This document shows, in pieces, positions 13,304 to 32,986 of a stretch of 40,008 nt of DNA (position 1 is the first letter of the stretch; each line of letters opens with the position of its first letter). Source of the DNA: a virus; IMG/VR virus record IMGVR_UViG_3300029258_000369, positions 1 to 40,008 of that record. One strand, written 5' to 3'. The notes under the pieces were generated by a model. That model was given only the letters and a program-made list of their open reading frames with translations. It was not told the DNA's origin and made no database searches. Made by a program: the position numbers and the translations under genes.

Positions 13304-13528
13304 ATGACAGAGACAGAACTGAACCTCGTGTTTATCGAGTACGGGGTGTACGCCCTTGCGAAGGCTATCGAGGACGGGAGCGACGTGGACCCTAAGGTCT
13401 ACGAGACCGTGTACAAGTACCTCGACAAGAAGGAACTCGACACCATCCCCGAGCCCGAGTCGGGTACGGCGGCGGCAGACCAGTTGGCAAAGATCAGGGC
13501 CAAGCACGGGATGTCTGAGGAAGAGTGA
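13304..13528 (+). CDS. terS: Small terminase subunit (T7 gp18-like)
   Basis: This 74-residue acidic, helical protein lies directly before the large terminase, as gp18 does before gp19 in T7 (89 residues). It ends IRAKHGMSEEE, and its stop overlaps the terL start. I chose ATG 13304 with AGGAG 8 bases upstream; GTG 13295 would add three residues and would overlap the stop of a possible 15-codon ORF starting at GTG 13251, which has AGGAGA upstream. The assignment rests on position, size and the coupling to terL. Confidence 0.75.
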   Translation: MTETELNLVFIEYGVYALAKAIEDGSDVDPKVYETVYKYLDKKELDTIPEPESGTAAADQLAKIRAKHGMSEEE

Positions 13529-15276
13529 TGAACTACTACGAGTATCTGGAAGAGATCGACCAGATGGTCCAAGCCGACCCCGGCGTTCTCCACACGGACA
13601 CGATGCGTGGGGAGATGAAGAAAGACTTCAGGACCTTCATGTGGTTTGTCTTTAAGGAGGCGTACGGGTTTACCCCCCACCGTATCCAGCTCGACTTTGC
13701 CGACCTGATGCAGAAGGGGGTCGGGACCTCGCACATCCTGATGGCTATGCGTGAGTTCGGGAAGTCCATTATCGACGCGGCGTTTATCGACTGGTTCCTT
13801 CTGGTGAACCCGAACGCCACGGTGCTCGTGATGTCGGCGAACTTCGACAGGTCTCAGGAGATCGTGGGGACCGCCCTCGGCATCCTCAAGTCCTGTGACT
13901 TTCTCACGGACATGTGTCCCGGCAAGTACGACCTCGACGGTCGTATGGCCTTTACGGTGGGAACGAGGACCAAGGTCGTCAAGGAGCCGTCCTGTACGGC
14001 AACGAGTATCACGGCTGGTAACACGGGGAAGCACGCCGACCTCATCCTGTCCGACGATATCGAGATCCCCAAGAACTCAGACACACAGCCCAAGCGACAG
14101 AAGATCCTAGATGGCGTGGACGAGTACACGTACATCCTGAACATCGGGGGGACCGACATGAAGATCGGGACCCCCCAGACGGAAGACTCGGTGTACTTTA
14201 AACTCGTGGACGACGGGAGTCACACGATGTCCCGTGTCCCCGCCGAGTACCCGGACGTTACCGACGAGAAGCAGATGGCCCACCTCGCTGAGTTTTTGCT
14301 AGAGGAGATGAGAAAGGGTGACGTAGAACAGGGGGACCCCACCTACCCGGAACGATTCGGTAGGGAGGAACTTGCGAAGACCAAGGCCAAGGCCCCCGGA
14401 ACGTACGCCCTCCAGATGCTTCTGGACCCGTCCGCGTCCGACGAGGACAAGTACCCCCTCAAGCTGAGGGACGTCATCGTTATGGAACTTAGCCCCGACT
14501 ACGGACCCCTCCGGGTCATGTGGAACCTGACGAACCCGAGGGACGACATAGAGTCGGTCGGGCTCGGTAAGGACATGTGGTACGGGCCGGGGTACGTAGA
14601 CCATACCCCGACAGAGTACCAACTCTCTGTTATGGGTATCGACCCCGCAGGGAACGGACCAGACGAGGTAGGGTACGCGGTAGCCAAGAACATTCACAGC
14701 AACGTGTTTGTTACCGCAGCCGGTGGTATCGACGGTGGGTACGACGACGCTACCCTGAAGAAACTCTGTGAGATCGCTATGGCCCAAGGGGTCAAAGAGA
14801 TACACGTAGAGAAGAACTTTGCGGACGGCATGTACGGTGTTCAGTTGGCTCGTGTGCTGGGGGAGATGGGATTACGAATCCCCATCGTTCAGGCAACGGC
14901 AAAGGGGCAGAAGGAACAACGTATCCTCGCTACCCTCGAACCAATCTTCGCCTCACACAAACTGGTTATCGACTCACGTGTAGCACGAGACCAAACATTG
15001 GCCTACCAGATTACTCGGATGAGGAACGAGAGAGGGGCACTCCTACATGACGACCGTGTAGACGCCCTTGAGATTGCACTCAAACCATTCCAAGACATGT
15101 TCCTCATAGATGCGGACAAGATGATCTCCGATACACAGGACCAAGAGTTCCAACACGAGATCCAAGGGTTCCTACAGTACCACAAGGCCCCCGAGAAGAT
15201 CCACAGCATCTTGGGGTCTAAACGACGTGGAACGAGTAAGCCTACCATATTTGGTAGACAACGACGCAGAAGGTGA
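13528..15276 (+). CDS. terL: Large terminase subunit (T7 gp19-like)
   Basis: This 582-residue packaging motor ATPase-nuclease is the same length as T7 gp19 (586). The ATPase part has a Walker A-like REFGKS at residues 75-80 and Walker B LILSDDIE at 172-179. The nuclease part has GIDPAGNGPDE with Asp372, HVEKN with Glu428 and HDDRVDAL with Asp508-Asp509, which supply the metal-binding acids. It cuts concatemers and pumps DNA through the portal. Its ATG overlaps the terS stop (TGATG). The repeat-rich terminal region starts just downstream, as expected for a T7-type genome end. Confidence 0.95.
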   Translation: MNYYEYLEEIDQMVQADPGVLHTDTMRGEMKKDFRTFMWFVFKEAYGFTPHRIQLDFADLMQKGVGTSHILMAMREFGKSIIDAAFIDWFLLVNPNATVLVMSANFDRSQEIVGTALGILKSCDFLTDMCPGKYDLDGRMAFTVGTRTKVVKEPSCTATSITAGNTGKHADLILSDDIEIPKNSDTQPKRQKILDGVDEYTYILNIGGTDMKIGTPQTEDSVYFKLVDDGSHTMSRVPAEYPDVTDEKQMAHLAEFLLEEMRKGDVEQGDPTYPERFGREELAKTKAKAPGTYALQMLLDPSASDEDKYPLKLRDVIVMELSPDYGPLRVMWNLTNPRDDIESVGLGKDMWYGPGYVDHTPTEYQLSVMGIDPAGNGPDEVGYAVAKNIHSNVFVTAAGGIDGGYDDATLKKLCEIAMAQGVKEIHVEKNFADGMYGVQLARVLGEMGLRIPIVQATAKGQKEQRILATLEPIFASHKLVIDSRVARDQTLAYQITRMRNERGALLHDDRVDALEIALKPFQDMFLIDADKMISDTQDQEFQHEIQGFLQYHKAPEKIHSILGSKRRGTSKPTIFGRQRRRR

Positions 15277-15330: not shown

Positions 15331-15376
15331 CTACTAGTACCTATAGGTACCTTAAGGGTCCTATAGGTACTAGTAG
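15331..15376. repeat. Perfect 17-bp inverted repeat
   Basis: CTACTAGTACCTATAGG (15331-15347) is repeated exactly in inverted form at 15360-15376 around a 12-base spacer. The arms are built from short palindromes (ACTAGT, CCTATAGG) and can form a cruciform. It immediately precedes the 10-bp array, which starts inside the last bases of the right arm. This is a likely protein binding or processing site at the genome end. Confidence 0.85.
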
Positions 15377-15380
15377 GGTC

Positions 15381-15480
15381 CTGTAGGGTCCTGTAGGGTC
15401 CTGTAGGGTCCTGTAGGGTCCTGTAGGGTCCTGTAGGGTCCTGTAGGGTCCTGTAGGGTCCTGTAGGGTCCTGTAGGGTC
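15381..15480 (+). repeat. Ten perfect tandem copies of a 10-bp unit
   Basis: CTGTAGGGTC is repeated ten times without error, with a near copy (TAGTAGGGTC) just before and CTACAGGTAT just after. The unit length is about one helical turn, so a protein bound to each unit would sit on one face of the DNA. T7 has arrays of short CCTAAAG repeats next to its terminal repeats, and origins with iterons have a similar look. This is not a CRISPR: there are no spacers. Confidence 0.95.
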
Positions 15481-15486
15481 CTACAG

Positions 15487-15531
15487 GTATATTGTATTGA
15501 TATATAAATATATTAAATATATATATCTAGT
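15487..15531. other. AT-rich core next to the 10-bp array
   Basis: About 45 bases of almost pure A/T (alternating TATA steps) lie between the 10-bp array and its degenerate mirror-side copies, in an otherwise GC-rich genome. Such a stretch melts easily and would suit a DNA-unwinding element of an origin, or a flexible spacer at a packaging site. Neither is proven here. Confidence 0.7.
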
Positions 15532-15592
15532 AGTATACCTGTAGGTACCTGTAGGACCCTAAAGGACCTTAAGGACCCTTAAGGGTATCGTG
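15532..15592. repeat. Degenerate 10-bp repeats on the far side of the AT-rich core
   Basis: The 10-base period continues here in diverged form (CTGTAGGTAC, CTGTAGGACC, CTAAAGGACC, TTAAGGACCC), ending in the palindrome ACCCTTAAGGGT. Read on the opposite strand the segment resembles the left flank (CCTTAAGGGTCC...AGGTAC), so the block is roughly symmetrical about the AT-rich core. It includes CCTAAAG, the 7-base word repeated near T7 genome ends. Confidence 0.7.
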
Positions 15593-15857: not shown

Positions 15858-15988
15858 ACCACCCGGATTCGGGGGGTCCGACCGCACCACCCGGATTCGG
15901 GGGGTTAGTTAGTGCTTACTAACACAACCACCCGGATTCGGGGGGACCCGGTTAGTGTCCACTAACAGGACCACCCGGATTCGGGGGG
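15858..15988. repeat. Four copies of a 19-bp repeat
   Basis: ACCACCCGGATTCGGGGGG occurs at 15858, 15886, 15927 and 15970. Each contains the small dyad CCCG-GATT-CGGG. From the second copy on, the copies alternate with the GTTAGT dyads, giving a composite unit of about 41-43 bp. The regular alternation suggests one multi-site protein-binding array rather than two unrelated repeats. Confidence 0.9.
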
Positions 15989-16164
15989 ACCCGGTTAGTG
16001 CGGACTAACATGCCGGACAATGTTAGTTAGTGCTTACTAACAGATCGAGCCCGCGTATGTTAGTTAGTGCTTACTCACCACCCTTTCGTCCATCCGGATA
16101 TTCGGATATTCGGATATTCGGATATTCGGATGGACCCGACCGGTCCATGTTAGTAAGTACTAAC
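15908..16164. promoter_or_regulatory. Six phased copies of the dyad GTTAGT-N4-ACTAAC
   Basis: Dyads lie at 15908-15923, 15951-15966, 15994-16009, 16026-16041, 16063-16078 (one mismatch, ACTCAC) and 16149-16164. Half-sites are the same while the 4-base spacers vary (GCTT, GTCC, GCGG, GCTT, GCTT, AAGT), the mark of a dimeric protein's operator. Centre-to-centre distances are 43, 43, 32, 37 and 86 bp, mostly near whole helical turns. The last copy is about 50 bp upstream of the -35 box of the first early promoter. Binding by a phage or host regulator is inferred. Confidence 0.8.
16088..16135. repeat. Hairpin enclosing four 8-bp tandem repeats
   Basis: GTCCATCCG (16088-16096) and CGGATGGAC (16127-16135) are exact inverted arms. 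Between them GATATTCG is repeated in tandem four times (16097-16128, overlapping the right arm). It lies between the fifth and sixth GTTAGT dyads. A structural or binding element is likely; no coding capacity is seen. Confidence 0.85.
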
Positions 16165-16215: not shown

Positions 16216-16243
16216 TTGACCAATCGCCGATATATGGTATACT
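16216..16243 (+). promoter_or_regulatory. First early sigma70-type promoter
   Basis: TTGACC (16216-16221) and TATACT (16238-16243) are separated by 16 bp, close to the bacterial consensus. Transcription should begin near 16250, about 65 bases before the first early gene. This is the expected leftmost early promoter used by host RNA polymerase right after DNA entry. The dyad array lies immediately upstream and could control it. Confidence 0.8.
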
Positions 16244-16314: not shown

Positions 16315-16653
16315 ATGACAACCAAGACCAACGCCAAGACCAACGCCAAGACCAACGCCAAGACCAACGCCAAGACCAATGCGTCTATCGAATGGATCAA
16401 GGCCTTGGACGTTCTCGCCGCACCTGCCAAGGAACAGGCCGACCCCGCTAAACAGGATAGCCTTGCGGCGGCTGTGCGATACTTGCTTTCTCCGTCCGCT
16501 AAGCGTGAGACTATCGGTATCGATGGGGGGGAGTTCGGGAAACAGAACGTCTCTGCCCAGCGGGCCGCCTTGATTCTGTGTGGTGTGAACGTTCGTGCGA
16601 ATACGTCTAGGTCCTCCATTGTGAAGGCGTACAAAGACAGTAAAAGCAAGTAA
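16315..16653 (+). CDS. First early gene: basic protein with KTNA repeats
   Basis: The product has 112 residues. The N-terminus holds five KTNA-type repeats encoded by tandem copies of AAGACCAACGCC (16324-16383), making a flexible basic arm. The rest is a compact helical domain (IEWIKALDVLAAPAKEQ, YLLSPSAKRETIGI) with a Lys/Ser-rich end. ATG 16315 has AGAAAGG upstream; the longer in-frame ORF begins inside the promoter and is not used. As the first gene after the early promoter, it is a candidate host-takeover or anti-defence protein or a DNA-binding protein. No family is recognised. Confidence 0.75.
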   Translation: MTTKTNAKTNAKTNAKTNAKTNASIEWIKALDVLAAPAKEQADPAKQDSLAAAVRYLLSPSAKRETIGIDGGEFGKQNVSAQRAALILCGVNVRANTSRSSIVKAYKDSKSK

Positions 16654-26996: not shown

Positions 26997-29900
26997 ATGA
27001 GAAAACTTCACCCCGGTATGGGGCAGGCGGTAGCGGAGCGGACGGTCCTTCGTGAGAAGGGTAACGGAGAGTTAGAGACGTGGCAAGACGTGGCGTTCAG
27101 GGTCGCACGTGGGAACACGTCCCTCGTCCCCGACTGTTCAGACATGGTCGGGCTTGAGGATCACATCGGCAACGGTCGGATCCTGATGAGTGGTCGCCAT
27201 CTGCAACAAGGGGACGAGTGGCAGCACAGGCGGAACATGGAAGTTTTCACGAACTGCGGACATCGAGATACCCGTCTGCTTACTCAAGAGTTTGGAGTCA
27301 CCTCCCTCGGCGAGATCGCAGGACATACAGTTACTGTTCGGTGTAAAGACGGACAATGGCGACCGGCAGTTGCAAAGAGCTACGGCCAGCAAGAGTTGTT
27401 CGACATGGTGTTCCGTCGATACCCCAAGACTGGGCCTGCGTTGCGAGTGACAGAACGGTTTACTCGTAACCACAGATGGGTTCTGGAAGATGGGTCGGTG
27501 ACTGACGCCATCCGGGTGGGCGATAGATTACAGCCTGCGGTGATTCAGACGCCCTCTGATCCAGAAGCTGTGATTGACGGTTTGATTTTTGGGGACGGTA
27601 CTCACCACAAACGGAGGCTGGACACGTCCTTGGCGGTTCATTCTCAGGGGCGAACATACGCCACCCTTCGCGTCTGTAAGCAGGATTCAGTCCGTGAAGA
27701 GATTCACACAATCCTCGATGACGCTGGATACAAGTTCACCACGCCTAAGTCAGCTAATGGTGATCGTGTGTACTACTTCGGGAAACGCCCGTTTGCTAAA
27801 GACGTTCCCCATACTCGTGACGGAGAATACATCGGTAGTTTCATTCACGGGTGGTGGTTAGCCGATGGGTCCAAGACAGAATCAAGCAGATCGTCCACAT
27901 CCAACCTGACACAGACCATTTCCACAGCTAACCGAGAGGCCGCTGAGTGGTTGGTTGAACATGCTCCGTTTGCAGGTTACACGGTCGTAAGTCACAAGAT
28001 CAAAGATCGCCGAGAAGGTGATGGCTCCTTCCCTAATGGGAAGCCGCTTCATGTCGTCCGTCTTCGACACAGTGTTGTGTGGGAGTTGGAATCAATGGAG
28101 TCTGTGGGAACGGACGAGGTCTTCTGTGTGGAGGAGCCGGAGACACAGTCGTTCACGCTTGGAACAGGCATGGTCACAGGGAACTGTGCTACGGCGGCGT
28201 CCTCCTTCGCATCGTTCGGCCTCCTCCTGAACGGGAGTGGGGTCGGACGGTGTTACGACGACGACATGATGCTGGTGGATTGGGATGAGGCTCCCAAGAT
28301 GGTGATGAAGATTTCATCCAGCCACCCCGACTTTGAGGAGGCGAGAAAGACCCTTGACCCTACACCCTTCAAGGAAGTGTTGGGTGATGAGTCTCGATGG
28401 AGAGGGCATCAGGTGGAGGATTCCCGAGAGGGTTGGATGAAAGCTCTGGAACTCTACGAGACGATGACGTTCCGTAAAGAGGACCAGAACCTTCTCATCC
28501 TCGACTTCTCCAACGTCCGCCCCTCTGGCTCACCCATCGGCGGGATGCAGGGCCGACCCTCCTGCGGCCCCGTGCCCACAATGCAAGCCTTCGCCAACGT
28601 CCGTGACAAGGTGGTGGGGAGGGGTCTCCCGAGGTGGCTCCAAGCCATGATGGTGGACCACTTCTTCGCCGAGTCCGTGCTGGTCGGCGGGGCACGGAGA
28701 GCCGCACGTATCGCTACCAAGTCGTGGCGAGACGAGGGGATCTTCGAGTTCATCAACTGCAAGCAGGAGGGCGACCTCTGGTCGGCCAACAACAGCGTGG
28801 CGGTGGACGAGGAGTTCTGGCAGAAGGTTCATCAAGAGGACACCAGAGCACGAGAAGTCTTTGACGCCGTCACCTACGCAGCCTACCACCACGGCACAGG
28901 TGAACCCGGCTTCCTGAACCTCCACAGGCTGAACAACAACGAGAAGGGGCTGGACTGGGAGGAACTCAAGAAGGGCGAGTGGCTCGGCTCTGAGAAGTAC
29001 ACGGTTGAGCCCGAGACCAAGAGCTACCTTGGGTTCCTCGCCGCAGCCGTCAAGAACAAGCGGTACAAGTTCATCGTCAACCCCTGTGCGGAGATCCCCC
29101 TGTTGATTCTGGGTGGGTACTGCGTGATCGGGGACGTCGTCCCGTTCCACTGCAAGGATCAGGAGGAGTTTGAAGATGCCTGCCGACACACGGCCCGTGC
29201 GCTTGTCCGTGTCAACACAATGGACAGCCTCTACCGAGGAGAGGTGCGACGGACGAATCGTATTGGTGTTGGAGTCACGGGACTCCATGAGTGGCTCTGG
29301 GATCGACACGGCATTTCTTTCAGGGAAGCGGTACGAAGTCCCGCTCTCAGTGGCGACTGGGAGATTGATCTCCAGACTGCAAGACGAGCATCAGAGTTGT
29401 CTGCGGATGAGTATGCAGCACGCCTTGGACTCTCTCATCCCCACACCGTCACCACCATCAAGCCAGCAGGCACCACCAGCAAACTCTTCGGGCTGACAGA
29501 AGGCTGTCACCTCCCGGCGATGGCGTACTACCTGCGGTGGGTCCAGTTCCGATCTGATGATCCGTTGGTCTCCGAGTACGAGTCTCACGGCTACCCGATC
29601 AAGGAACTCCAGACGTACAAGGGGATGACCGCCGTGGGATTCCCCACCAAACTCCCCATCGCCGACCTCGGCATGGGAGACAGACTGACCTTCGCTGGTG
29701 ATGCCACCATGCAAGAGCAGTTCGAGTGGCTCCGCCGTCTGGAATCCTCGTGGCTTGGACCCCGCGGGAACCAAGTCTCCTACACGCTCAAGTATGACCC
29801 TGAGGAGGTGTCTTACGAGCAGTTTCGGGAGGCGATGCTCGCCAACATGGACAGCATCCGGTGTTGTTCGGTGATGCCACAGGTGGACACGACCAAGTAC

Positions 29901-30041
29901 GAGTACCAGCCCGAGGAACCAATCACGGAGGAGCAGTACGACGACATGATGTCACACATTGACAGGATGAAAGAAGACATTGGCCGGGAGCACGTCGATT
30001 GTGGTTCAGGCGGGTGTCCTATCGACTTCAACGATGATTAA
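26997..30041 (+). CDS. nrdJ: Class II ribonucleotide reductase with intein
   Basis: The precursor has 1014 residues; removing the 310-residue intein leaves 704, close to monomeric adenosylcobalamin-dependent reductases such as that of L. leichmannii (739). The exteins join as EVFTN/CATAASSF, placing the redox-active Cys at the splice point. NPCAEIPL (Cys697, Glu699 of the precursor) carries the catalytic Cys and Glu. TTIKPAGTTS is the conserved loop, and the C-terminal VDCGSGGCPID has the shuttling cysteines. No small subunit gene is present, as expected for class II. It makes deoxynucleoside triphosphates. The start at 26997 has a weak CGGAG site. Residues after the intein show codon use rich in GCC, CTC and ACC. 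Confidence 0.92.
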   Translation: MRKLHPGMGQAVAERTVLREKGNGELETWQDVAFRVARGNTSLVPDCSDMVGLEDHIGNGRILMSGRHLQQGDEWQHRRNMEVFTNCGHRDTRLLTQEFGVTSLGEIAGHTVTVRCKDGQWRPAVAKSYGQQELFDMVFRRYPKTGPALRVTERFTRNHRWVLEDGSVTDAIRVGDRLQPAVIQTPSDPEAVIDGLIFGDGTHHKRRLDTSLAVHSQGRTYATLRVCKQDSVREEIHTILDDAGYKFTTPKSANGDRVYYFGKRPFAKDVPHTRDGEYIGSFIHGWWLADGSKTESSRSSTSNLTQTISTANREAAEWLVEHAPFAGYTVVSHKIKDRREGDGSFPNGKPLHVVRLRHSVVWELESMESVGTDEVFCVEEPETQSFTLGTGMVTGNCATAASSFASFGLLLNGSGVGRCYDDDMMLVDWDEAPKMVMKISSSHPDFEEARKTLDPTPFKEVLGDESRWRGHQVEDSREGWMKALELYETMTFRKEDQNLLILDFSNVRPSGSPIGGMQGRPSCGPVPTMQAFANVRDKVVGRGLPRWLQAMMVDHFFAESVLVGGARRAARIATKSWRDEGIFEFINCKQEGDLWSANNSVAVDEEFWQKVHQEDTRAREVFDAVTYAAYHHGTGEPGFLNLHRLNNNEKGLDWEELKKGEWLGSEKYTVEPETKSYLGFLAAAVKNKRYKFIVNPCAEIPLLILGGYCVIGDVVPFHCKDQEEFEDACRHTARALVRVNTMDSLYRGEVRRTNRIGVGVTGLHEWLWDRHGISFREAVRSPALSGDWEIDLQTARRASELSADEYAARLGLSHPHTVTTIKPAGTTSKLFGLTEGCHLPAMAYYLRWVQFRSDDPLVSEYESHGYPIKELQTYKGMTAVGFPTKLPIADLGMGDRLTFAGDATMQEQFEWLRRLESSWLGPRGNQVSYTLKYDPEEVSYEQFREAMLANMDSIRCCSVMPQVDTTKYEYQPEEPITEEQYDDMMSHIDRMKEDIGREHVDCGSGGCPIDFNDD
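27255..28184 (+). mobile_element. LAGLIDADG intein in the reductase
   Basis: The 310-residue insertion begins Cys87 (CGHRDTRLLTQEFG, block A) and ends LGTGMVTGN just before Cys397 of the C-extein. Block B is RFTRNHRWVLEDG with His159. The homing endonuclease has two LAGLIDADG-type motifs, VIDGLIFGDGT (Asp200) and FIHGWWLADGS (Asp290), both with the catalytic acid, so it may be active. Block F is VFCVEEPETQSFTL. The residue before the final Asn is Gly where most inteins have His; splicing with this substitution is known in some inteins. Base use is more A/T-rich than the reductase around it, consistent with separate acquisition. Confidence 0.9.
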
Positions 30042-30074: not shown

Positions 30075-30509
30075 ATGTTTAGATTTAAACCCTTCGTCGT
30101 ATTCCAGAAAGTACTCGCAACCGCCACCTTCCCAGTCTTCAAGACAAAGGGGTCGGCGGGTGCCGACGTGTTCTCGGCGGAAGACAAGAGGCTCGGGGCA
30201 AACGAGAATACCCCGGTGCGTACCGGGGTTAAGGTGAAGGTGCCCGATGGTTGGGAGTTGCAGGTGAGATCAAGGTCCGGCCTTGCCCTAAAGGGGGTAA
30301 CGGTAGCAAACGCACCCGGCACGATCGACAGCGACTACCGTGGCGAGATTATTGTCATCCTTCACTCCCTCGTTCCCTACGAGGTGAAGACGGGTGACCG
30401 TATCGCCCAACTGGTCTTGAAGAAAGCACACGGGTTCGTGATTAAAGAAGGACTGGTACCCCTCGACACCGATAGGGGCGAGGGTGGATTCGGGAGTACG
30501 GGCGTATGA
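30075..30509 (+). CDS. dut: dUTPase
   Basis: The 144-residue product shows all five motifs of trimeric dUTPases in order: GSAGADVFS, RSRSGLAL, GTIDSDYRGEI, GDRIAQLVL and RGEGGFGSTG. It hydrolyses dUTP to dUMP and pyrophosphate, keeping uracil out of DNA and feeding ThyX with dUMP. AAGGAG precedes ATG 30075. Its stop overlaps the RNA polymerase start (ATGA). Confidence 0.95.
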   Translation: MFRFKPFVVFQKVLATATFPVFKTKGSAGADVFSAEDKRLGANENTPVRTGVKVKVPDGWELQVRSRSGLALKGVTVANAPGTIDSDYRGEIIVILHSLVPYEVKTGDRIAQLVLKKAHGFVIKEGLVPLDTDRGEGGFGSTGV

Positions 30510-32986
30510 CGACACGGGACGAGTTTCTCCGACAAGAACAGCAAGACCTTGAAATGGAAGCCGTCCGTGAGGGGGTGGATAAATACTACAAGACGTATCA
30601 CGAGACTCCCCCGTCTAATCGTACCCCCGAGATGTCGTACATCGCACGTAACATGGACCCCCTGATCGAACATATCGACGGGGTGAAGGTTCGTGTGGCT
30701 AGGGGAGAGAGGATGTCCAACGCCTCCGTGTGGGGTATCCCCCTGCTTACGGTGGAGACACCCAAGTTGGCCCTCATCACACTCACGTCTATCTTCAACC
30801 TATCAGAGAAGTCCATGCCGAGGGTGGCAAGGGACATCTCCGAGCGTGTCCTTATGGAGATCATCCACGAGGAAGTGAAGAGGACGACACCCGGAGTCGT
30901 CTCGTGGATCGAGAAGAGTTTCGACCACGGCATGGCCTACCACGCACGTTACGCCCTAAGGAAACGGGCCGAGAAGATGATGACCGTGAAGTGGGACACC
31001 GTTACCCACCAGAAGGTGGGGTCACGACTGATCTCCTGTGCGTACGAGGCGTCCGAGGATATCGAGAAGTGTACCACGTACACGTCTAACCATCGCAAGG
31101 CGTATTCTATCCGGGTCAAACCTGAGGTAAAGGAGGCTATCGAGCGGCAGCACTCGGACAGGTCGGTACTCAGGCCGTCCTACATGCCGCTCGTGTGTCC
31201 CCCGGACGATTGGACCACGGCGTACGACGGCGGGTATTTGACCGGGCACGACGAGCGTACGTGTCTCTCTCCCCTTATCAAGGAGGGATTCAAGAACCAT
31301 ATCTCCGAGTACACCCCCGAGATGTTCGGTCTACACATGGCCGGGGTGAACTATATCCAACAGACGGCGTGGGAAGTCAACCCCCTGATTCACGAACTCG
31401 TTCAGGATATCGACGTGCTTGATTCTGAGTTGGGAAAGAAACTCTCTACCCAACCTAAGGAACTCCCCTGTCGTGAGAAGATCGACTGGGAAGATCCCCA
31501 AGAGGTAGCCGTATGGAAGTACGCCGCACGTGAGGTACACGAGCATAACAGGAACACACAGGGGCAGCGTAGTCTCTACCTGTACCTGACGAGTACGGCG
31601 AAGAAGATGAAGAAGTACCCGAAGTTCTACTTCGCTTGGGACCTGTGCTTTCGTGGTAGGTACTACCCGAAATACTGTGGTATGGACCCGCAAGGTGACA
31701 AGATCAACAAGGCGTACCTCAGGTTTGCCGACCCCGAACCTCTCGGTCACGAGGGGTACAAGGCGTTAACTATCCACCTCGCAAACTGTATGGGGTACGA
31801 CAAACTGAAAGAGTCCGACAGGATTCAAGCGGTTCACGATCGCAAGGACGAGATTAAGTCTTGGGCCTACGACCCACACGGCAACACGGGGTGGACCGAG
31901 GAAGAGACCCTGCTTACCCTCGCCGCAGCCGAGGAGTGGGTCGAGGCTACCGAGTCGGGATCTCCCGAAACGTACCTGTCAAAGATACCGTGTGCTATCG
32001 ACGGCAAGTGTAACGGACTCCAACACCTGTCGGCACTGTCTCGTGACCCGGTCGGTGCCAAGGCGACGTGTCTCGTTCCTATGGACGAGCCTCAGGATAT
32101 CTACTCCCTCGTCTGGGAGAAGGTGGACAAGTACCTACTCGACACCATCACGAGGGCCAACCTAGATCAGATCCCCGCCGTACTCCCCGAGAAGCCGAAG
32201 GCGGGGGAACAACTCCTACTCACGGACGAACAGAGGAGACTGAGGAAGAGACAGCAGGACTTCTGTGCGGCCCTGTCTTGGAGGGATAAGACGTCCCGCA
32301 AGCTCGTGAAGAGGGGTGCTATGACGTGGGCCTACGGGGTAACACGTCAGGGGATTATGACCCAACTCATCGCCGACGGGTTCCTCGACGACATCGAGGG
32401 GTCACTCGCCGGTAACGCCTCGTACATGAGGGACCTTATCTACGACGCGGTGAACAATACCGTGACGTCGGCGAGGGAAGTCATGGAGTGGCTCCAGTAC
32501 GTTGCGAACACGGCCTACGACGAGGGACACGCACTTCGGTGGACCAACCCTGCGGGCATGACGATCCAGCAGGAATACTTGAAGAAGAAGACACGACAGG
32601 TCAAGATGGCTACCGGAAGGTACGCCTTCTACCTCGACGATATGGGTCAGAGGAAGATGGTGAGGAAGCGTCAGGTCAACGGGATCGCACCCAACTTTGT
32701 CCACTCGATCGACGCCGCACACATGACACAGGTAGCTCTCCGACTCAAGGAGGCCGGAGTCAACCACGTTCATATGGTACACGACTCCTTCGGGGTCCAC
32801 GCCAGACACGTACCACTCCTGCACCGTATCGTGCGGGAAGAGTTTGTCAAGATTCACAAGAGGAACCTCCTACAGGAGTTTAAGGAGGAAGTAGAAGAAC
32901 AAATAGGTGCGGAACTCCTGCCGTACCCCCCACTAGGAGACTTCAATGTCGAAGAAATACTTGAAAGTCGGTATGCTTTCGCTTGA
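30506..32986 (+). CDS. Single-subunit phage RNA polymerase (T7-type)
   Basis: This 826-residue polymerase (T7: 883) has motif A DGKCNGLQHLSAL with Asp499, motif B VKRGAMTWAYG with Lys602 and Tyr610, and motif C HMVHDSFG with Asp760, the aligned partners of T7 Asp537, Lys631, Tyr639 and Asp812. It should transcribe the late genes from promoters I could not recognise. Its start overlaps the dut stop. It lies about 14 kb into the early side, after the reductase, whereas in T7 it is the first major early gene, so much more DNA must be read by host polymerase first. Confidence 0.95.
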   Translation: MTTRDEFLRQEQQDLEMEAVREGVDKYYKTYHETPPSNRTPEMSYIARNMDPLIEHIDGVKVRVARGERMSNASVWGIPLLTVETPKLALITLTSIFNLSEKSMPRVARDISERVLMEIIHEEVKRTTPGVVSWIEKSFDHGMAYHARYALRKRAEKMMTVKWDTVTHQKVGSRLISCAYEASEDIEKCTTYTSNHRKAYSIRVKPEVKEAIERQHSDRSVLRPSYMPLVCPPDDWTTAYDGGYLTGHDERTCLSPLIKEGFKNHISEYTPEMFGLHMAGVNYIQQTAWEVNPLIHELVQDIDVLDSELGKKLSTQPKELPCREKIDWEDPQEVAVWKYAAREVHEHNRNTQGQRSLYLYLTSTAKKMKKYPKFYFAWDLCFRGRYYPKYCGMDPQGDKINKAYLRFADPEPLGHEGYKALTIHLANCMGYDKLKESDRIQAVHDRKDEIKSWAYDPHGNTGWTEEETLLTLAAAEEWVEATESGSPETYLSKIPCAIDGKCNGLQHLSALSRDPVGAKATCLVPMDEPQDIYSLVWEKVDKYLLDTITRANLDQIPAVLPEKPKAGEQLLLTDEQRRLRKRQQDFCAALSWRDKTSRKLVKRGAMTWAYGVTRQGIMTQLIADGFLDDIEGSLAGNASYMRDLIYDAVNNTVTSAREVMEWLQYVANTAYDEGHALRWTNPAGMTIQQEYLKKKTRQVKMATGRYAFYLDDMGQRKMVRKRQVNGIAPNFVHSIDAAHMTQVALRLKEAGVNHVHMVHDSFGVHARHVPLLHRIVREEFVKIHKRNLLQEFKEEVEEQIGAELLPYPPLGDFNVEEILESRYAFA

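Follow-up and report, generated by a model that had tools for sequence, protein, structure and literature searches.

Six palindromic dyads in the left-end region of a T7-like phage can tentatively be read as operators of a dimeric regulator, which would control early phage transcription or be titrated by the phage DNA. The leading form of this reading, in which the binder is host-encoded and shared with the gene nrdA, has in our estimate a probability of about 0.42. It draws on the array itself, on recurrence of the same site in many phages beside the terminase genes and on its presence ahead of nrdA in seven gammaproteobacterial genomes.

A dyad array ahead of the first early gene

The window, that is, the whole stretch of DNA analysed here, is a 40,008-base virus record (IMGVR_UViG_3300029258_000369). 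By its predicted single-subunit T7-type RNA polymerase (30506-32986, plus strand; Pfam RNA_pol, 2.9e-93), the phage is T7-like. The last late gene ahead of the genome-end region encodes a T7-type terminase large subunit (13525-15276, plus strand; Pfam Terminase-T7_RNaseH-like, 6.8e-30; PHROG 38, 2.9e-76), and both this protein and the polymerase have their nearest matches in phages of proteobacteria, at 29-37% identity only. The terminase gene is followed by 10-bp tandem repeats CCTGTAGGGT with inverted partners (15338-15584), then by the dyad array, a sigma70-like promoter and the first early gene (16315-16653, plus strand), whose 112-aa product matches neither Pfam nor PHROG. We take the 10-bp repeats to resemble the short repeats that flank the T7 terminal repeats, and they probably mark the genome-end region. 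The array thus occupies the same position as the left-end early promoter region of T7, between genome-end repeats and first early gene; to our knowledge, palindromic operator arrays are not a feature of that region in T7. The collections searched yielded no close relative of the window that includes the array region.

Five exact copies of GTTAGT-N4-ACTAAC start at 15908, 15951, 15994, 16026 and 16149, where base composition predicts 0.0013 in 40 kb, and dyad 5, at 16063, has a single half-site mismatch (ACTCAC). The six dyads with a 4-base spacer described by the sequence-only reading are therefore borne out, and the whole window record holds no further exact copy outside 15908-16164. Two features had escaped that reading. 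Dyads 1 (15908-15923), 4 (16026-16041) and 5 (16063-16078) extend into a 20-bp palindrome, GTTAGTTAGTGCTTACTAAC, which occupies 15904-15923, 16022-16041 and, with one mismatch, 16059-16078; the other three dyads are GTTAGTGTCCACTAAC (dyad 2, 15951-15966), GTTAGTGCGGACTAAC (dyad 3, 15994-16009) and GTTAGTAAGTACTAAC (dyad 6, 16149-16164). In addition, the spacer is purine-NN-pyrimidine in four of the five exact sites. We rejected a hairpin as the explanation of the dyads because the strict R..Y spacer ends leave the stem unextended.

The proposed helical phasing of the dyads was only partial. Spacings of 43, 43 and 32 bp correspond to 4.10, 4.10 and 3.05 turns, but 37 bp corresponds to 3.52 turns and 86 bp fits loosely (8.19 turns). 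In the largest phage group carrying the site (group 1, below), dyad spacings were non-random at 10.5-11 bp, off whole-turn centres and uncorrected for kinship. The alternation of dyads with a 19-bp repeat, ACCACCCGGATTCGGGGGG (CCCG-N4-CGGG), likewise holds in part, since the repeat (15858-15876, 15886-15904, 15927-15945 and 15970-15988) precedes dyads 1-3 and not dyads 4-6. Between dyads 5 and 6, four tandem GGATATTC units lie within a 48-bp inverted repeat (16088-16135). Dyad 6 ends 51 bp before the -35 box of the putative promoter TTGACC-N16-TATACT (16216-16243, plus strand), in agreement with the roughly 50 bp originally noted; the promoter itself is a consensus match, and the window contains one such match against 1.8 expected from shuffled sequences. 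As the array fronts the first early genes and not lysis genes, the suggestion of a lysis-timing switch found no support.

Recurrence of the site in other phages

We scanned IMG/VR for two GTTAGT-N4-ACTAAC dyads 10-40 bp apart, using reversed half-sites as a control. Tandem dyads were found in at least 120 stretches compared with none for the control, and the 20-mer GTTAGTTAGTGCTTACTAAC was matched in 68 stretches. As the pattern was chosen from the window motif, these counts show recurrence of the motif and not its frequency among phages. The site is common to many phages and not private to the phage of the window. Chance or simple repeat expansion as the origin of the dyads is ruled out by the exact counts together with the empty reversed control. 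A full-text literature search for the dyad motif returned no matching paper.

Most phages with the tandem dyads carry them between the early and terminase genes. Group 1 is a podovirus-like family; its relatives with annotation are podoviruses that have portals of the P22 type. All of its 127 unique sites have RNNY spacers, a pattern expected from symmetric protein contacts. Members of groups 1, 3 and 4, and phages with other terminases, have their sites in a single intergenic cluster next to terS/terL, in most cases where the early and late operons diverge, and the arrays adjoin several unrelated types of TerL. Another contig with weak matches to T7 RNA polymerase also has the dyads. Just ahead of terS in group 1, 400-1150 bp upstream of TerL, lies a cos-like element, GGGTAGGGCCGACGG...GGTCACGGCTACGGAGG...CACAAAATTTTTTATTTTTT (L276, L300, L311, L270, L273 and others).

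Group 2 has terminases related to those of SPbeta-like Firmicutes phages at 30-38%, and its spacers are mostly of the opposite class (YNNR). The arrangement recalls the SPBRE/MrpR system of Bacillus phage SPbeta, in which a short element repeated in intergenic promoter regions of the phage is served by one regulator (PMC10516654). Large contigs with distant SPbeta-like terminases hold many GTTAGT-YNNR-ACTAAC sites. Those sites are spread over an extended stretch, and their spacers are of the class opposite to that of the window; the T7-like phage of the window, by contrast, has its dyads in a single cluster. No MrpR-like repressor of the tyrosine-recombinase fold was noticed among the window proteins scanned.

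Sites ahead of nrdA in host genomes

In a search of roughly 745 proteobacterial genomes, the phage-type site GTTAGTRNNYACTAAC was not enriched over the reversed control, with 16 versus 14 matches in 369 Gammaproteobacteria genomes and 9 versus 15 in 398 Pseudomonadota genomes. We therefore rejected a general proteobacterial regulon; a host regulator of the exact site would have to be restricted to some lineages. Four of 24 proteobacterial matches, however, lie 28-60 bp upstream of the -35 box of nrdA (ribonucleotide reductase), and three more nrdA-upstream sites came from the family of one of these four genomes and from one further genome. The same palindrome thus occupies a conserved position, about 100-300 bp before nrdA, in seven gammaproteobacterial genomes (L407, L408, L409, L410, L416, L417 and L419). 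Its distance to the -35 box, read by eye in two cases, is 28 bp in three genomes of one family and 49, 50, 51 and 60 bp in the others, compared with 51 bp in the window. Although the link to nrdA is post hoc, having been spotted among the matches with no prior prediction, chance is an unlikely cause of this placement.

NrdR boxes, too, are elements that control nrdA from upstream. The nrdA regions in question contain NrdR-box-like sequences of their own, closer to the promoter than the dyad, and GTTAGT-N4-ACTAAC is an element distinct from them. DnaA-box-like sequences adjoin the dyad in some of the seven genomes. The dyad is absent upstream of E. coli nrdA, and degenerate sites in the genomes with nrdA sites formed no clear regulon. 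A beta-proteobacterial bin includes an array contig, and 120 other genomes of its family showed no chromosomal site. Other palindromes stand in close relatives, and for one of these, TGTTTAYRTAAACA, no counterpart in hosts emerged (22 matches versus 19 for the control, mostly coding). A match at nrdB in L250 was discarded because the dyad belongs to a terminator. The window phage encodes its own predicted B12-dependent (class II) ribonucleotide reductase (26997-30041), which is of interest because of the nrdA link.

Together, these distributions suggest that phages borrow a host regulator, given the recurrence of its putative site beside packaging genes and before nrdA. A dimeric protein would read GTTAGTR half-sites at a distance of 10 bp (N4), and the 20-mer would arise where such pairs overlap. 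In some gammaproteobacteria it would occupy a single site about 30-60 bp before the nrdA promoter, and phages would carry arrays of this nrdA-type site between the early and terminase genes, ahead of the first early genes. The most likely effect would be either to link early transcription of the phage to the host factor or to titrate that factor off nrdAB. That one protein binds both kinds of site, that it is encoded by the host of the window phage, and the direction of its effect are our inferences. The idea of a dimeric, possibly host-derived binder already proposed for the window finds partial support in the seven nrdA sites and in the range of unrelated phages with the site; against a host origin stands the missing enrichment in proteobacterial genomes.

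A single palindrome of 16-20 bp recurring at one functional junction across unrelated terminases, and again before nrdA, would be notable if one host protein binds both: phages would have a DNA-only means of reading or disarming a control that the host exerts on DNA precursors or division, and the binder would be an nrdAB regulator without a match to known ones. A bolder version, which we regard as unlikely, is that many unrelated lytic phages use arrays of sites for a host cell-cycle or DNA-precursor regulator, either SlmA or a so far undescribed regulator of nrdAB, as decoy or sensor at that end of the genome where the early genes lie. If true, the phage's own DNA would block division or derepress ribonucleotide reductase.

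Candidate binders of the array

The binder is more likely host-encoded than phage-encoded. A phage repressor or activator, with a specificity that varies between phages as in heteroimmunity and a gene outside the tested stretch or among unrecognised small early genes, seems to us rather unlikely, although several observations fit it. In group 1, relatives at 68-72% TerL identity have a different palindrome in this position, GACCCACTGGGTC in DSL-LC05 and TGTTTAnnTAAACA in MW202483; elsewhere in the family, L331 has GATGGGCRTGCCCATC and L311 alternates two kinds of palindrome, as the window does. In both DSL-LC05 and MW202483 the leftward operon includes a small gene annotated as HTH-type, and the site is mostly absent from host chromosomes. 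However, unrelated phages have the identical palindrome without any tested gene in common, and the nrdA sites would be left unexplained. Among 20 proteins of the window, none was recognised as an HTH regulator at E values of up to 1, early proteins without a recognised family remaining, and a search of the array phages for the HTH genes of DSL-LC05 and MW202483 found nothing. Various other palindromes (ACCCASTGGGT, GATGGGCRTGCCCATC, TTGTACACAATGTGTACAA-like and TGTTTAnnTAAACA) were seen at the locus in L311, L300, L331, L317, L228 and L261.

Within group 1, we compared gene content from about -9 to +6 kb of 69 array-bearing and 60 array-free loci; many relatives lack an exact palindrome array at the locus. 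No gene family tracked the array over this distance. The best small gene occurred at 17 of 53 array-bearing loci and at none of 42 array-free ones, and primase at 26 of 27 loci with the array and 11 of 20 without it. Replication genes nearly always accompany the array (26/27, 13/14), yet are often present without it. As the comparison used fragment contigs and mechanically called ORFs, left kinship uncorrected and covered many families, it speaks against no more than a dedicated binder that is obvious and encoded locally. A conserved protein of 73 aa at the end of the operon was dropped as a candidate, since some of group 1 lack it and it matches no Pfam family.

A role of the array in DNA packaging, as part of a pac or cosB-like site bound by the small terminase, is very unlikely. 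Arrays do adjoin the terminase genes and genome end: in several kinds of phage they are neighbours of terS/terL, preceding these genes in groups 1 and 3 and following terS closely in group 4, and those of group 1 adjoin the conserved G/T-rich cos-like element. Covariation with TerS, assessed in group 1 only, was not seen. The TerS of MW202483 is about 60% identical to that of GTTAGT phages, yet this phage has another palindrome, and the TerS proteins of GTTAGT phages differ among themselves as much as from that of MW202483. Conversely, L093 has a different TerS and the same array, and three phages (L354, L363 and L379) whose polymerase and primase match those of group 1 (61-77%) have kept the 20-mer with a different TerL and TerS, indicating that the array is retained when the terminase is swapped. 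We therefore rejected TerS as the binder, as the array does not follow TerS similarity; packaging also leaves the nrdA sites unexplained.

SlmA, a TetR-family nucleoid-occlusion protein, would be recruited near the leading end of the phage DNA and could block division or pattern that DNA; we consider this distinctly unlikely. The E. coli SlmA consensus is GTGAGTACTCAC (PMC3116907), and a GTKAGT half-site is common to both elements. Exact GTGAGTACTCAC occurs nine times in the 34 kb that lie no more than 300 bp from group-1 arrays and not once in 373 kb elsewhere, although in arrays so rich in the half-site some exact 12-mers may derive from the half-site alone; for the looser GTnAGTGCTnAC the counts are 115 and 0. 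One half-site at N0, N4 and N8 spacings would fit SlmA, and tandem SlmA sites in multiple copies stop E. coli from dividing (PMC3573117). Two Microbacteriaceae genomes also have GTTAGT dyads in pairs directly before a TetR-family gene (L132:5759-5800 and L197:5478-5519). However, SlmA sites are N0, whereas the window dyads are N4 and N8, intergenic and clustered, and E. coli SlmA sites lie mainly in coding regions (PMC3116907). The window lacks exact GTGAGTACTCAC, its closest sequence being GTAAGTACTAAC in dyad 6 (16153-16164), with two differences. In the host genomes that carry an nrdA site, SlmA-like sequences are few (5 versus 1, 9 versus 7 and 2 versus 7 in the control), and the idea arose after the motif had been seen.

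Iron boxes of a DtxR/IdeR-type regulator are a highly improbable identity for the array. The scan pattern also occurs in 102 bacterial genome stretches (L126-L227), mostly of Firmicutes and Spirochaetes, in which tandem dyads lie near feoB, feoA, flavodoxin and DtxR genes. The cellular sites, however, have no strict spacer class (YR 78, YY 56, RY 25, RR 64), whereas those of group-1 phages are all RY; the window array has mostly RNNY spacers in a phage early region and not at iron uptake genes, and the affinities of the window terminase and polymerase, distant as they are, point to phages of proteobacteria. In rumen Firmicutes and Treponema, the tandem dyads at feoB, feoA, flavodoxin and DtxR-type genes are themselves likely an iron box.
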